Virus record (IMG/VR): IMGVR_UViG_3300044617_002006
Coordinates: 1 to 24,957 of that record
Source of the DNA: a virus
Reading direction: 5' to 3' (one strand)
DNA: 24,957 nt
Both the position numbers and the translations under genes were made by a program. Below are positions 4,683 to 18,367 of this stretch, piece by piece (position 1 is the first letter of the stretch; each line of letters opens with the position of its first letter). Under the pieces are notes generated by a model. The model searched no databases, was not told where the DNA came from, and was given only the letters and a program-made list of their open reading frames with translations.

Positions 4683-4841
4683 TTAGGATAGTTTGAAATC
4701 CCGTGGTGGTGCGACTGATTTGTTAGATTGGCAGATACAGCATTTGCCATAAAGCCATTCAATATCAGATGGAGTTTCGCTACCGAATTTGGAAGCGCAC
4801 TCGACGCATAACCACGAAGGGAATTTTGAAAGCTTACTCAA
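4683..4841 (-). CDS. small CxxC/CxxC zinc-ribbon protein, TTG start within the tRNA 3' end
   Basis: The frame is open to ATG 4931, but the N-terminal half of that reading is the tRNA-Leu gene and is not protein-like. The remaining 52 residues contain WLCVECASKFG and GKCCICQSNKSV, a treble-clef or ribbon-like pair of CxxC knuckles, then APPRDFKLS. Small phage proteins with two CxxC pairs followed by a (T/P)xPRDF tail are familiar. The only usable start is TTG 4841-4839, inside the tRNA acceptor strand, so start and expression are uncertain. Confidence 0.42.
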   Translation of the reverse strand: MSKLSKFPSWLCVECASKFGSETPSDIEWLYGKCCICQSNKSVAPPRDFKLS

Positions 4842-4920
4842 GGCGGGACTCGAACCCGCACTCCGCTGTTTGCGAAAAGGGATTTTAAGTCCCTTGCGTC
4901 TGCCATTCCGCCACTTGAGC
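4835..4920 (-). tRNA. tRNA-Leu(UAA)
   Basis: An 86-nt cloverleaf on the minus strand. The acceptor is GCTCAAG pairing with CTTGAGT, with one terminal G-T. The D arm has the usual GG. The anticodon stem AGGGA/TCCCT encloses a CTTAAAA loop, giving anticodon TAA. There is a long class II variable arm, and a T arm GCGGG-TTCGAGT-CCCGC. Discriminator A follows, with no encoded CCA. The long variable arm and anticodon both indicate leucine. It lies inside the early minus-strand operon and probably supplements host decoding of TTA codons. Confidence 0.95.
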
Positions 4921-12911: not shown

Positions 12912-14183
12912 ATGGCAAAACAAAAAAACGTAACCGAAGAAGGAGTTCCTTCGTCATTAGACTTAGGAAATGTAGAAACACCGTCGCAATCAGACCTCGA
13001 TAATCTTGAGGAAGCTATGACTGCCGCCGGCATTACGGATGAGGATACGCCAGCGCCATCGCCAGCTACAACATCGGATGCCGACACACAAACTGACCCT
13101 TCTGCGCCAGATACCCAAGAAGGGCTGACAGAAGGAATCGATTCTAAGCCTGTTCAAGAATCTGAACCGGTAATCCCGTCAAACGACTACGATGCCATAG
13201 ATCTCGATCGAGTTAGTGCCCCCGAAGATGTAAGTCCGCGGAATTTAGTCAACTTCAACAAACTTCGTGATGTGGCTAAGCATTACAAGACGCAAGCCGC
13301 CGCCGTTCCAGAATTACAACAGCAAATCGCAAGTTTGAGAAATTCGGCATCGTTGCCAGAACAATACGCAAAAGAGCTCAGCGAATTGCGTATGTTTAAA
13401 AAGATTTTTGACACGGAGAACGATCCAGAGTTTAAACAGCAATTCGATGAAAAAGTCCAGTCTTTAGACCAAGATGTTCTCGCTATCTTAATGAAGAATG
13501 GCCTGTCGCAAGAGACAGCTAACCAAATCAAGTCCGCAGGAATAGATAAAATTTCACCGCAGTGGTGGGAAAACTCTATCTTCAAAAAGATTTCGTTTGT
13601 TGATCGCGAGCGAATTCAAAAGAGACTGGCCGAGCGAGCTGATGTTGTTGAGCAGAAGTCTAAAGAGATCGAACGCTTTAACCAAGACCGCGAAACATAC
13701 TACGCGCGTCAACAAGAGCAACTTGTAGAGCAGCAGCAACAGTTAGAATCTCAAATTTACGACCATGTGGATGTTTTAACTGCTAAAGTCCCATGGGCGC
13801 GGTATCAAGAAATTCCGCCCAACGCCACTCCTGACCAAGTTAAGCAGATCGAGTCGCACAATCTGACCGTACAAGAGCTCGATAAGCAATTTCAAGAGGC
13901 ACTGTACCCGACAACACCGCAGTCTAGGGCTGAAGTAGCGGCAGCGGCAGTCGCGAGTACGCGCTTAGCGTCATCCGTCCAAGATCTGTCTAAGCGACTG
14001 ACAGATTCAAATGTTCGTGCTGAGAAATTACAAAAAGAGCTTGACGCGATACGTTCTGCAGGAAAATCGCCGTCCGCCAGAAGCTCGTCAAGAAAAGCTT
14101 CTTCGGACGGTCCAGAAACTGGAAAGCTTTCCGACGAAGACGCCATCGAACAAGGATTGCTAGCGGCTGAGTCTGCGTTATGA
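12912..14183 (+). CDS. scaffolding-like protein
   Basis: A 423-residue, highly charged protein. The first 110 residues are acidic and Ser/Thr/Pro-rich (disordered). The middle is a long coiled-coil-prone region: SELRMFKKIF, then AERADVVEQKSKEIERF, then a Gln-rich QQEQLVEQQQQLESQ. The C-terminus is basic and Ser-rich, then acidic. Acidic N-terminus, coiled coil and charged C-terminus placed between portal and capsid are typical of scaffolding proteins that guide procapsid assembly. It overlaps the dioxygenase start by ATGA. No sequence motif is diagnostic, so the call is by architecture and position. Confidence 0.75.
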   Translation: MAKQKNVTEEGVPSSLDLGNVETPSQSDLDNLEEAMTAAGITDEDTPAPSPATTSDADTQTDPSAPDTQEGLTEGIDSKPVQESEPVIPSNDYDAIDLDRVSAPEDVSPRNLVNFNKLRDVAKHYKTQAAAVPELQQQIASLRNSASLPEQYAKELSELRMFKKIFDTENDPEFKQQFDEKVQSLDQDVLAILMKNGLSQETANQIKSAGIDKISPQWWENSIFKKISFVDRERIQKRLAERADVVEQKSKEIERFNQDRETYYARQQEQLVEQQQQLESQIYDHVDVLTAKVPWARYQEIPPNATPDQVKQIESHNLTVQELDKQFQEALYPTTPQSRAEVAAAAVASTRLASSVQDLSKRLTDSNVRAEKLQKELDAIRSAGKSPSARSSSRKASSDGPETGKLSDEDAIEQGLLAAESAL

Positions 14184-14755
14184 ATCAAGATAACGACTTC
14201 CACCAGTCGATATCGTCGGTGGTCGTAGTTCCAAAAGTATTTTCTCCAGGAGAATGTGCTTTCATACGAAGTCTTGCCGACGATATCGGCATGACTCGGG
14301 CCGAAGTTTACGAAAAAGATTCTAGTTTACGGTTTTCAACTGCTCGCACATGCTCGAATGCCTGGATTGACGTTCTTCCAGAAACCGAGTGGATCTACAG
14401 TAAGATTCTCAAGGAAATTACTAGAGTCAATTTTGAAAAATTCAGGTTTGACATCAACAACTTCCAATCCGCGACACTGCTTAGGTACAAACCTTTTCAG
14501 CAATTTAAGTGGCACGTAGACATCATCGATGGCCCTGATCAGCGGAAACTAACTTGCGTTATCAATTTGACTGATCCAGCTCAGTATATAGGAGGACAAC
14601 TTGAAGTTGACGGTGACTGGGAAAATAAAGAACTAGCCCGTAATCAAGGTTCCGCGATTATTTTCCCTAGTTTTCTGCGCCATCGGGCAAAAGCTCCTAT
14701 ATTAGGCACTCGTTGGTCTTTAGTTCTTTGGCAAACAGGAGGCCCATGGAAATAA
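14180..14755 (+). CDS. 2OG-Fe(II) dioxygenase (prolyl-4-hydroxylase/PKHD-like)
   Basis: A 191-residue double-stranded beta-helix oxygenase. The iron triad is visible: His112-x-Asp114 in FKWHVDI and His168 in FLRHRA. Arg178 (GTRWSLVLW), 10 residues after the distal His, is the expected 2-oxoglutarate ligand. The LRYKPFQQFKWHVD lead-in and the GGQLEV turn are typical of P4H-type enzymes. It should hydroxylate a substrate using O2 and 2-oxoglutarate. It sits inside the head operon, overlapping both the scaffold gene and the first glycosyltransferase, so a virion protein is a plausible target. Confidence 0.9.
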   Translation: MNQDNDFHQSISSVVVVPKVFSPGECAFIRSLADDIGMTRAEVYEKDSSLRFSTARTCSNAWIDVLPETEWIYSKILKEITRVNFEKFRFDINNFQSATLLRYKPFQQFKWHVDIIDGPDQRKLTCVINLTDPAQYIGGQLEVDGDWENKELARNQGSAIIFPSFLRHRAKAPILGTRWSLVLWQTGGPWK

Positions 14756-15540
14756 ACGAGCTCGGAAAAATTACAGGACTCAGCCAGGAAGATTATAAAT
14801 CAGAAGCTCAAGAGTGGATAGGGCGAGATTTATTCGTAGCTTTTCCCTGCTATAAGCACACAAATCCTGTGACAGCTTGGTGTTTAGTGGCTATAGCGCT
14901 TGACTTAGGCGTAGAAAAAGTCAGATTTGATATGGAGATCGGCGACGCGATGATTTACCATGCCCGCAACCGTCTAGCAGAAAAATTTTTGGCGTCTGAG
15001 TCAAACTGGCTTTTGTTTTTAGACGATGACATGATTGTGCCTATAGGTCGACCTGATTTTTTCAAAGCAATGTCTCGTTTGCCCAGCTCGTATTCCACGG
15101 CTGCGGCATCGTTGCACACGGTCAACCGTTTAATTGGCCACCAAAAAGAACTAGTCGGCGCTTCATATTTTGCGAGGCATCCAAATGGACGAGCGATAAA
15201 TAGTTTGCACGCGGATCCCGAATATCGTCAAAAAGTTTGTTCCTTCCATGACGGCATCCTACCTTGCCAGTGGATAGGAACTGGATGCATGCTTATCCAC
15301 CGAAGTATTTTTTTAGCGATGAAAGAAAAGTTTCCGGAGCTAGAACCGGAAAATTCAGAGATGCCGTGGAATTTTTTCCAACCTGGAATTGATGGGAAAG
15401 GCGAAGACATTGCATTTTGCTCTAGAGCTATTGAGTGCGGGTTTACCCCGCACGTAGATACTTTTTTGCAGGCTATTCATGTAGGCTATGGAACGTATGG
15501 AGTCCATACTTCTAGCATATATAACGAAAACACGCTATGA
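14746..15540 (+). CDS. GT-A-fold glycosyltransferase-like protein
   Basis: A 264-residue protein. ATG 14746 is chosen over 14713 because AGGAGG lies at 14737-14742, although only 3 bases away. LLFLDDDMIVPI (DDD at 93-95) supplies the metal/nucleotide-sugar binding acidic cluster of GT-A enzymes. A WIGTGCMLIHRSIF segment and GEDIAFCSRAIECGF resemble the acceptor-side GxGxxL and ED motifs of family 2-type transferases. No membrane segment is present, so it is cytoplasmic. It overlaps the dioxygenase by 10 bases and couples to the next gene by ATGA. Donor and acceptor are unknown. Confidence 0.8.
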   Translation: MEINELGKITGLSQEDYKSEAQEWIGRDLFVAFPCYKHTNPVTAWCLVAIALDLGVEKVRFDMEIGDAMIYHARNRLAEKFLASESNWLLFLDDDMIVPIGRPDFFKAMSRLPSSYSTAAASLHTVNRLIGHQKELVGASYFARHPNGRAINSLHADPEYRQKVCSFHDGILPCQWIGTGCMLIHRSIFLAMKEKFPELEPENSEMPWNFFQPGIDGKGEDIAFCSRAIECGFTPHVDTFLQAIHVGYGTYGVHTSSIYNENTL

Positions 15541-16943
15541 ATGTTTACACAGTATATTCTCAAAGCCACGTAAGACTTTTTGAAAAACACTTTTTGCCAT
15601 CTTTCGAGACGGCAAATTCAGCAAAAAAACTTTCTCTATTTGCTGCGCGCATAAGCCAAAAAAGCGAAACCGGGGAATTCGAATCGCCAGGTTTTCGCGA
15701 AACTATGGCAGATAAGTTGACCGCGATATTGACTGCTATCCATGACAATCGCGAAAAATGGTTTTTGTTTTGCGACTGTGACTGCCGATTCTACGATGAT
15801 TTCGCAGAAGATATTTTTCGATACCGGGAAAAAAAAGTTGACGTTTATTTCCAGGATGATTTTGGGGGAAATGAAGCGCAGCCCCTGCTTTGCGCCGGTT
15901 TCATGCTTATTCAAGCTAACGAAAAATCAGAAGCACTTTTTAAGACTTGCCTTGAAAACTTGCATAAGTTCCGCGATGACCAAGCTGCAATAAATTATTA
16001 CAAAGACATGATTCACTGGAGGACGTTGCCTCCAGAAAAATACTTTTCTGTTTGTCACGCGCTAGGCCAGCTTGTATGGACTAAAGAAACTTTTAAAGTT
16101 CCGATAGGCATTAAAATGCACCACGCAAATTGGACTAGAGGAACCGAAAATAAAGAGCGTTTGCTTAGCTATGTCTTTGAGCAGACGACAACAAAATTTG
16201 CCAATTCGCAAAGTTTGGTAAAATATCCTTTGCTTTACGCGCTGCAAGTTTACGATGCTGAAATTCCAAAAGCTATAGAGCTTGCAAAATTTCATGCCAA
16301 ACTTAGTGACTATAATCCGTACTTAGGCGCAGCTTGCCTGCTTGTTTACCGTAAAGATTGCCCTAAAAGTCCCGAGTTGGAAAAGACACTAGAATACGCA
16401 TTCCCAAATTTTTCTGTCTACCGTTCTAAACGCCGTGACAAAGGTTTTCCGGAAGGATCAAACGCTTTGTGGTGCGAAACCATGCAACAAGTCGCAGCTT
16501 TGAATCAACAACACCGTTTATCAAGTGAATTCGTTTTAACTACAGAAGCTGACGCTTATCCCATCGCTAAAGACTGGATACCTAAATTAACAGAAGCTTG
16601 GCGCAGAAGTAAAGCTAGTGTCGTAGGATGTTGGCATCCTTACATAGGTATCGGCGATTCTAAGTGCGGGCATATCAATGGAAACGCCATGTTTGCTCTA
16701 AACTTAGCCATGCTAGATTCTAAGTTTGTCGGTTGCCCTGGACAAATTGGGTGGGATTTGTATTTTGCAGAATCTTTTAAGGCTATCGGGTGGGCAGATG
16801 TTCCAGAAATAAGAAACTGGTATAAGCGCACTCAAATTTCGGCGGCAGAGCTTAAGAAATTACAGTCTGAAAATTGCGTTTTTTTGCACGGCATTAAAGA
16901 TAGTTCTGTTGTAGATTTGCTAAGAAGTATTTGGTTTGACTAA
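15537..16943 (+). CDS. two-domain glycosyltransferase-like protein
   Basis: A 468-residue protein that looks like two nucleotide-sugar transferase domains in tandem. The N-terminal part (1-220) has FLFCDCDCRFYDDF with DCD at 80-82 (DxD), DDQAAIN at about 145, and IKMHHANWTRG, a late histidine site as in GT77/GT-A-type folds. The C-terminal part (about 290-468) has LTTEADAYPI (EAD at 337-339), HINGNAMFA, GWDLYFAESF and CVFLHGIKD. Each half seems complete by itself. It is coupled to the preceding transferase by ATGA. Function is predicted from motifs only; it may add a second sugar. Confidence 0.75.
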   Translation: MNVYTVYSQSHVRLFEKHFLPSFETANSAKKLSLFAARISQKSETGEFESPGFRETMADKLTAILTAIHDNREKWFLFCDCDCRFYDDFAEDIFRYREKKVDVYFQDDFGGNEAQPLLCAGFMLIQANEKSEALFKTCLENLHKFRDDQAAINYYKDMIHWRTLPPEKYFSVCHALGQLVWTKETFKVPIGIKMHHANWTRGTENKERLLSYVFEQTTTKFANSQSLVKYPLLYALQVYDAEIPKAIELAKFHAKLSDYNPYLGAACLLVYRKDCPKSPELEKTLEYAFPNFSVYRSKRRDKGFPEGSNALWCETMQQVAALNQQHRLSSEFVLTTEADAYPIAKDWIPKLTEAWRRSKASVVGCWHPYIGIGDSKCGHINGNAMFALNLAMLDSKFVGCPGQIGWDLYFAESFKAIGWADVPEIRNWYKRTQISAAELKKLQSENCVFLHGIKDSSVVDLLRSIWFD

Positions 16944-16963
16944 GTAGCAAATTTAGTTGTATC
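16936..16963 (+). promoter_or_regulatory. possible weak promoter for capsid leader
   Basis: TTGACT at 16936-16941 overlaps the stop of the transferase gene. A TGTATC lies at 16958-16963 after 16 bases. The -35 is close to consensus but the -10 is poor. Transcription would start near 16970, just before the structured leader. Weak evidence. Confidence 0.25.
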
Positions 16964-16982
16964 AAAAAATGTTTTAGTCGTA

Positions 16983-17109
16983 TGAGTTTCCCACGAGTGA
17001 TTGCCGGAAGCAATTAGGGAGCGACAGACTTGCTGTAGCAAACAGGCCGCAAATTGTCCTAACGTGCCGAGGACGGAAAACAACCAGGAAACTGGTCAAC
17101 CGAAACTCA
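16983..17109 (+). ncRNA. structured RNA leader before the capsid gene
   Basis: A 127-base noncoding stretch folds by inspection into a closed multibranch. The outer helix is TGAGTTTC (16983-16990) with GAAACTCA (17102-17109). Inside are hairpins ATTGC/GCAAT (17000-17014), TTGC/GCAA (17030-17041, possibly extended by GCG/CGC), GTCCT/AGGAC (17056-17074), and ACCAG/CTGGT with a GAAA tetraloop (17083-17096). CACG (16992-16995) can pair with CGTG in the third loop, suggesting a pseudoknot. It ends 22 bases before the capsid start, so it is a cis-acting leader or a separate RNA. No known ribozyme or riboswitch consensus was recognised. Confidence 0.65.
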
Positions 17110-17131
17110 AACTTAAACACGTTAAAATTCT

Positions 17132-18367
17132 ATGCCAAACGATTGTATTGCACTCAGCACTGTGACTGAGTTTGCTGCAAAAGACACAAACCGTATCGTG
17201 GGACAAATCGGCAAAGTTCTTGCTCGTAAGTCCCCGTATATGAACATCCTCAAGGGTGGAACAATTCCGAACGTTTCGGATGTCGTCCGCTCCGTTGTCC
17301 AAGAACGCGCCGTTATGGCGTCTTCTTTAGCTGAACCTGAGTTCATCAACGACGTTAGCCTTTGCGGGCAGGGCGCCGATGCCGATGAAGTCGGTTCTAC
17401 AGAATACCAATATCAGCTGCAATCTTTGCGCGGCCGCGGTCCCCGCGTTTGCGTGAAGACCAGCCGCGCGGCTTTCAAAGGCGCTTATCTCCAGGCGCAG
17501 ATGGCCTTGGAAAAAGGTATTCTTCAAATCATGAACTCAGATATTCGCGCAACGCTTCTCAAGCGTTCCGGCGTCAAGTTCCTGGCTAAAAAGGGCGTAT
17601 CCTTCGACAACCTTGTTACAGGCGATGCGCAGAAAATCGACCAGCCTTTTTATAACGCATTGCCCGATGCGCAAATGAATTTCCGCACGCTCTATAAGCT
17701 CGGTTCTCTTCTCCGTGAAGACCTCCTGGCTGAGCCTTTTGGCACAGAGCGTGGAGATTTCTTCATGGTCATTGCTTCGATCGACCAGATCGAGGCTTTC
17801 CGCAATGATGCTGACGTCAAAGAGGATCTTCTCTATGTGACGGCGGGCTCGTTTAAGCTTGGCAATGATGCCCTGACTGGTTACCAGTTCCAAGGCTATC
17901 GTGGCTTTGCACTCGGAATTGATAGCCAACCTTTGCGTTTTAACACCATTACTCCTGTTACAGGAACTGGTGGCGCCGTGGTTGGAGCCATGCCTAACCT
18001 TATCGAGCCTGAAATTGGCGTCAATGTCAACAATGGCAAAGGTGCCCGCCGCAATCCCGCTTGGATCACAGCCCAATATGAAATCGGGTTCTTGATCGCT
18101 GGCGATAGCTTTGCGCGCTTGACGCCTGAGCGATACAGCGGTGAAGGAACCTTCAAATTCGCGCCTCAACTTGCTATGGGCGAACTTGAGTGGGTTGCTC
18201 AACGCGACAATGACTGCAACCTGTTCCTCGATTACGGGCAGCATATCTACCAGATCAGCCGCGCTTACCAGCCGATCCGGCCGCATTGCATCGTCCCATT
18301 CGCCTACAAGCGTTGCCAATTCAACACTGGCCTCGAAGCTTGCATCTCTAGCTCGACCGGCCTGTAA
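17132..18367 (+). CDS. major capsid protein (HK97-fold inferred)
   Basis: A 411-residue protein immediately after the portal, scaffold and modification genes, in the position and size range of a major capsid protein. An N-terminal SPYMNILKGGTIPNVSD stretch, a central helical domain with LLREDLLAEPFG, and a beta-rich C-terminal half (RNPAWITAQYEIGF) fit the HK97-like pattern. Codon choice is more G/C-ending than in its neighbours, suggesting high expression. No Shine-Dalgarno is seen before ATG 17132; the structured leader lies upstream and a strong hairpin downstream. Capsid role is by context; fold is inference. Confidence 0.8.
   Translation: MPNDCIALSTVTEFAAKDTNRIVGQIGKVLARKSPYMNILKGGTIPNVSDVVRSVVQERAVMASSLAEPEFINDVSLCGQGADADEVGSTEYQYQLQSLRGRGPRVCVKTSRAAFKGAYLQAQMALEKGILQIMNSDIRATLLKRSGVKFLAKKGVSFDNLVTGDAQKIDQPFYNALPDAQMNFRTLYKLGSLLREDLLAEPFGTERGDFFMVIASIDQIEAFRNDADVKEDLLYVTAGSFKLGNDALTGYQFQGYRGFALGIDSQPLRFNTITPVTGTGGAVVGAMPNLIEPEIGVNVNNGKGARRNPAWITAQYEIGFLIAGDSFARLTPERYSGEGTFKFAPQLAMGELEWVAQRDNDCNLFLDYGQHIYQISRAYQPIRPHCIVPFAYKRCQFNTGLEACISSSTGL

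Follow-up and report, generated by a model that had tools for sequence, protein, structure and literature searches.

A large uncultured group of viruses of bacteria carries a structured RNA element ahead of its capsid gene. This element represents a new RNA family within a known category, that of regulatory leaders, and its target is unusual. Judging from its sequence and position, the element would form the structured 5′ terminus of the capsid mRNA and would most likely act in cis to switch translation of whichever gene comes first on that transcript, a reading in which our confidence is about even. The original prediction had placed a structured RNA leader before the capsid gene of the window, by which we mean the whole stretch of DNA analysed, an IMG/VR record of 24,957 bases; its core claim of a conserved RNA element stands, whereas the fold drawn for it does not.

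The capsid gene and its surroundings

The noncoding gap that had been noted upstream of the capsid gene is present between two ORFs of the window (16944-17131). A nucleotide-sugar-transferase-like ORF (Pfam PF03407) borders it on the 5′ side, and the first gene 3′ of the element is that of an HK97-type major capsid protein (MCP; 17132-18367, + strand, as are all element features below). PHROG and Pfam searches with the 411-residue ORF gave no match; a Foldseek search with its AlphaFold model, which is weak (mean pLDDT 53), returned the LME-1 phage capsid as top match (E 1e-4) and phage capsids throughout the following ranks. On this weak model, the assignment as a capsid gene holds. The capsid start indeed lacks a Shine-Dalgarno sequence, as had been remarked, but this is not special: few of the 28 listed genes of the window have one, so its absence here is a general genome trait and provides no argument.

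Directly 5′ of the capsid gene, positions 14180-16943 hold a 2OG-Fe(II) oxygenase gene, an ORF with a weak glycosyltransferase match and the nucleotide-sugar-transferase-like gene, which perhaps serve virion or cell-surface modification. A tRNA-Leu(taa) gene occurs in the window (4835-4920, −) and in one relative (L111:3877-3962, −).

Distribution of the element

Relatives of the MCP were drawn from IMG/VR (59-89% identity among those aligned), and upstream of the MCP most of them share a common core, an AGGCCG strand followed by a hairpin with the loop AGCGUGCCG. This core was scanned as a DNA pattern over the whole collection, ignoring the MCP. A crude regex motif parser produced many false matches, and a covariance model (R1), for which 38 leaders of the main clade were used and only nested helices were included, took its place. 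Of 100 loci with MCP relatives, 97 match R1; of 24 long phage records, 23 contain a single match each, and the 24th, L019, has a diverged copy that was seen by eye. Half of the 100 pattern-scan loci are R1 matches, and all 50 of these lie on the same strand as, and upstream of, an MCP homologue, at a distance of 70-290 nt apart from one at 1168 nt. In several relatives with a distance of ~1.1 kb, a gene with an FGE-sulfatase domain intervenes and the element stands directly before that gene. Each phage record thus has a single copy, which always precedes the capsid gene or the FGE-like gene ahead of it, and the family shares with riboswitches a structured domain that is conserved in the leaders of one type of gene. 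The intervening FGE-sulfatase-domain genes have a signal-peptide-like start (L276:1486-2445, L254:1448-2428, L231:1470-2444), and in L040, L043 and L056 a larger distance from leader to capsid match arises because the capsid genes apparently have an N-terminal extension.

The Rfam search that had been proposed places the element in no known family. At the gathering score, Rfam 15 detected only the tRNA in the window and left the element unmatched there and in 13 relatives; permissive E-values likewise yielded no match to the element apart from one chance miRNA (E 2.6). A tRNA-like or tmRNA reading was rejected, tmRNA being found neither in 13 relatives nor in the window. The suggestion of a novel cis-regulatory element is supported by the lack of an Rfam match, the single copy per phage record, the fixed gene position and the strong covariation described below. 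A direct DNA similarity search of isolate phages yielded chance matches only, and no capsid homologue was found in isolate phages or in the host genomes searched; hence there is no cultured example and no known host. In the open literature we found no capsid-gene leader RNA of such kind described, a 2017 set of 224 candidate RNAs lying outside the scope of this search.

Consensus fold and covariation

The family consensus comprises two kissing hairpins followed by two H-type pseudoknots. Main-clade leaders open with a small hairpin, a CGG of which forms a kissing contact with a CCG in the loop of the next hairpin, and continue with H1, the pseudoknot PK1 (in L298, GGUUC-UGAUAGG-GAACC-GCAAGA-CCUAUCA) and the pseudoknot PK2, in which AGGCCG pairs with the loop of hairpin B. 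Compensatory changes, whose absence was to count against the prediction, were found both in the window clade and in the wider family: across 76 distinct sequences, both-side changes occur at 23 of 27 pairs, a level reached by none of 500 shuffles, and 94.7% of cells are paired versus 71.9% in shuffles. Because PK1 and PK2 both lie outside the model that made the alignment (R1), their covariation is not a fitting artefact; the nested stems are also visible in an independent MAFFT alignment. PK2 is kept through extensive replacement of its strands, with GGACGA/UCGUCC in L019 and L020, AGCCG/CGGCU in L032, GGACG/CGUUCC in L223, GGCUG/CAUGCC in L309 and GGGCC/GGCCC in L329, and at 44-48% MCP identity it persists with the new sequences GGGCC/GGCCC and GAGCC/GGCUC. 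In L305 it was recognised by eye as CGGCG/CGCCG, the automated pseudoknot finder having missed this locus, where stem B has 4 bp. Paired columns contain 59 G-U cells versus 20 A-C cells, which fits an RNA made from the capsid-coding strand.

Folding energy had been offered as a second measure, and for 16983-17109 it is ordinary rather than better than shuffled sequence (z −1.27; 19 of 200 shuffles equally good). Folding of single sequences was discarded as a criterion, because even relatives that covary massively are indistinguishable from shuffles by this score (z +0.2 to −1.5); given the pseudoknots, a folding energy no better than shuffled is uninformative.

The element in the window

The window matches R1 at 17040-17074 (27.5 bits, E 2.7e-6), and only in the 3′ half of the element, that is, in the PK2 strand and hairpin B. 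There AGGCCG (17044-17049) pairs with CG(U)GCC (17063-17068, U17065 bulged) in the loop of hairpin B (17054-17076), whose core is GUCCU/AGGAC (17056-17060/17070-17074) and whose stem covaries in relatives. PK2 and hairpin B are unchanged in the window clade; the PK2 pairs are invariant there and covary in relatives, so PK2 in the window rests on homology with the wider family. This pairing takes the place of the CACG/CGTG pseudoknot of the original prediction, which we rejected because the same CGUG serves the covarying pairing with AGGCCG.

In the 5′ half, the kissing hairpins and PK1 of the family are not found in the window, and two hairpins stand in this part. The first (16998-17016, UGAUUGC-CGGAA-GCAAUUA) has compensatory changes in the window clade with 100% of cells paired; the second (17021-17039, GCGACAG-ACUUG-CUGUAGC, 7 bp) sits where relatives have PK1 and replaces it, with both-side changes at three pairs and 87% of cells paired. 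L018, the sister of the window clade, retains PK1. Several hairpins are present, as had been proposed, and close relatives share the ones at 16998-17016, 17021-17039 and 17056-17074, of which the last is invariant among these relatives and covaries in the wider family. A 5′ segment UCGU...ACGA (16978-16996) may occupy the position of the relatives' H1 and kissing region, although this is a low-confidence alignment made by eye with UCGAAUGGCUCACGCACGAG of L018.

The predicted GAAA-tetraloop hairpin (ACCAG-GAAA-CUGGU, 17083-17096) is present in the sequence and in the MFE fold, and close relatives appear by eye to have a hairpin of other sequence at this place. The 8-bp outer helix that was to enclose the hairpins (16983-16990 with GAAACUCA, 17102-17109) can form in the window and is compensated in L021 and L022 and partly in L017, but it is absent from L002-L014; it is thus not a conserved feature, and we rejected it as a feature of the family.

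Seven nucleotides 5′ of the start codon, CACGUUA (17118-17124) is complementary to UAACGUG (17060-17066) in the PK2 loop, and the two could form a start-proximal alternative helix. The shuffle p for this pairing is 0.06 against the whole element and 0.0007 against hairpin B, a comparison chosen afterwards; close relatives do not keep it. A direct repeat with a spacing of 21 lies before and at the start of the element (16952-16962, TTTAGTTGTAT; 16973-16983, TTTAGTCGTAT).

Predicted alternative helices near the start codon

Most leaders of the main clade contain, ~20-75 nt downstream of hairpin B, a strand that can pair with the 3′ arm of B and the nucleotides directly after it. This helix C reuses the arm of B, so stem B with PK2 and helix C are mutually exclusive. 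Over 47 leaders, the duplex score is 17.5 for a leader's own strands versus 14.3 for swapped and 12.4 for shuffled ones, and individual cases are formed by different sequences (GGAAGUGACA/UGUCACUUCC in L273, GUGCGAUC/GAUCGCAC in L231, GGGCUAC/GUAGCCC in L266). The strand just 3′ of helix C is in turn able, in many relatives, to pair beside or over the first start codon. This helix E reaches p<=0.05 in 17 of 39 leaders versus 2 of 39 in a coding-region control (Fisher p 1.8e-12 versus 0.10), values obtained with mononucleotide shuffles and after the pattern had been noticed. Helix E, too, is formed by unrelated sequences, for instance AAUCAUUUUG/CAAAAUGAUU over the AUG of L231 and others in L242, L216 and L309, and it occurs in phages in which the FGE-like gene comes first (L254, L231). 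When a leader's own helix E is compared with pairing to the start regions of other leaders, its standing is moderate (median rank 0.26), because the UUAGAAAAC motif is widely shared and leaders are partly interchangeable; several relatives have no convincing helix E. An onward pairing of the C strand, helix D, is clear by eye in several leaders and not significant in most. In the window clade the C-D-E chain was not found, helix C being absent. Mutually exclusive helices linked to an expression signal thus appear in many main-clade relatives, whereas the search of the window clade revealed none. A GUUCAAGCAGAAC-like hairpin, common to many leaders, lies 3′ of helix C and before the start codon in L224, L249 and L254.

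Promoter-like sequence and terminators

The non-redundant loci scanned for TTGAC-N16-18-TAnnnn number 56, and in 42 of them the 3′ end of the best match lies 2-8 nt 5′ of the element, where random placement within the scanned stretch would be expected to put about 1 in 5. The match is weak in single sequences, the window included, where a possible sigma-70-type promoter (TTGACT-N18-TATCAA, 16936-16965) has a shuffle p of 0.24 and a second scan gave no match. The recurrence of promoter-like sequence just 5′ of the element suggests that a transcript probably begins at the element or close to it, and we infer transcription from a neighbouring promoter. Scans of the leaders of L224 and of the window revealed no intrinsic terminator on the coding strand, and inspection of other leaders by eye revealed no hairpin with a U-run before the gene. 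In a distant group (L330-L341), a TTGAC stands ~150-190 nt 5′ of the capsid start and ~17 nt before a conserved CACTTCT that replaces the normal −10 box; this is possibly a different promoter type.

Proposed mechanism and alternatives

The explanation that we favour for the structure, position and copy number of the element, and for the alternative pairing seen in relatives, is a two-state fold with a translational output. While the pseudoknot domain is folded, the start region would be open and capsid protein made; once the domain opens, helices C and E would form and initiation would be blocked. Candidate triggers are small (a metabolite or an ion), proteinaceous (the capsid or some other protein of the phage) or kinetic (the speed of co-transcriptional folding). 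In the window clade, which is without helix C, regulation would proceed directly via the pseudoknot domain, perhaps through the pairing of 17060-17066 with 17118-17124. The missing coding-strand terminator in the two scanned leaders was counted in favour of a translational switch. In a bolder form, which we put forward tentatively and consider somewhat improbable, the element would found a new class of RNA switches and be the first such switch known for a tailed-phage major capsid gene. Its two pseudoknots in tandem would respond to a metabolite, to an ion or to how far capsid assembly has progressed, and competing helices would pass the signal on until the capsid start is closed.

The same anatomy would also fit a protein-binding operator or an mRNA stabiliser. 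As an operator, the tandem pseudoknots would be the site at which a phage protein (capsid, scaffold or RNA-binding protein) blocks initiation on the A-rich leader in the manner of gp32, and the capsid autoregulation site of the original prediction is possible in this form. We consider such an operator unlikely, if worth keeping in mind: the regulated gene would encode an abundant structural protein, and the layout is that of the T4 gene 32 operator, in which a pseudoknot precedes an A/C-rich leader that has little structure and extends to the start codon (PMC535899), but an operator alone would leave the conserved exclusion between B and C unexplained, and FGE-first phages have another gene first after the leader. 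Rather more doubtful is a knotted 5′ end that protects the capsid mRNA from end-dependent decay. The element adjoins promoter-like sequence, and its distance to the first gene varies from 46 nt (L278) to well over 100 nt, so where it lies with respect to the transcript start may be more important than its spacing from the start codon; stability would, however, require neither exact alternative pairings nor a start-proximal partner strand.

An RNA-based processive antitermination element of the put- or EAR-like kind, acting on polymerase for the late operon, could be expected to be promoter-proximal, single in each record and ahead of capsid and tail genes, as this element is; its location midway within the structural gene run and the predicted helix E, for which antitermination has no explanation, make this very improbable. 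Several ribozymes have compact multi-pseudoknot folds, and the fold of the element is of this type, but the earlier suggestion of a ribozyme-like or processing RNA found no support and we give self-cleavage or processing still less credence, as the element matches no catalogued ribozyme in Rfam and its pseudoknot strands are swapped wholesale among relatives (L019, L223, L305, L329). That the element is a chance structure, one of many folds of an ordinary spacer, agrees with its ordinary nested folding energy but is hardly credible; homology speaks against it, and covariation refutes it for the family.

Promoters and gene order are the usual explanation, for the most part, of how tailed phages match the amount of shell protein to that of scaffold and portal and to the supply of genomes. 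An RNA domain kept across phages whose capsid proteins are ~45-60% identical, while its own sequence is replaced, points to selection for control, at the level of RNA, of the virion protein that is made in the largest amount. Compactness, testable base pairs and alternative states also characterise the family.

Comparison with known systems

The cyanophage manA and wcaG motifs are likewise phage-borne candidate structured cis-acting RNAs; they are linked to sugar, exopolysaccharide or light-response genes (PMC2864571), and both fold and gene differ from those of our element. The STAXI motif shares with it the presence of more than one pseudoknot in tandem but repeats a single pseudoknot and occurs close to genes whose products bind or handle DNA (PMC2864571), whereas our element has two different pseudoknots before a capsid gene and matches nothing in Rfam. 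Translational riboswitches resemble it in general architecture: at their 5′ side lies a domain with a pseudoknot, and the final stem of this domain is in competition with a helix farther downstream that is linked to the start region. Unlike them, the element is not near metabolic genes and not in Rfam, its gene context gives no hint of a ligand, and the window clade is without the competing helix.

The T4 gene 32 mRNA carries a translational operator composed of a 5′ pseudoknot and then a loosely structured A-rich leader that reaches the start codon (PMC535899). By sequence, our element has this layout of a 5′ pseudoknot followed by an unstructured leader to the start codon, and both are leaders of phage mRNAs in which the pseudoknot is of the H-type. 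We saw no sequence relation between the two, and the element differs in its kissing pair, its two pseudoknots, its capsid target and its competing helices. By this analogy, the T4 gene 32 operator is nevertheless the closest thing that the element may work like.
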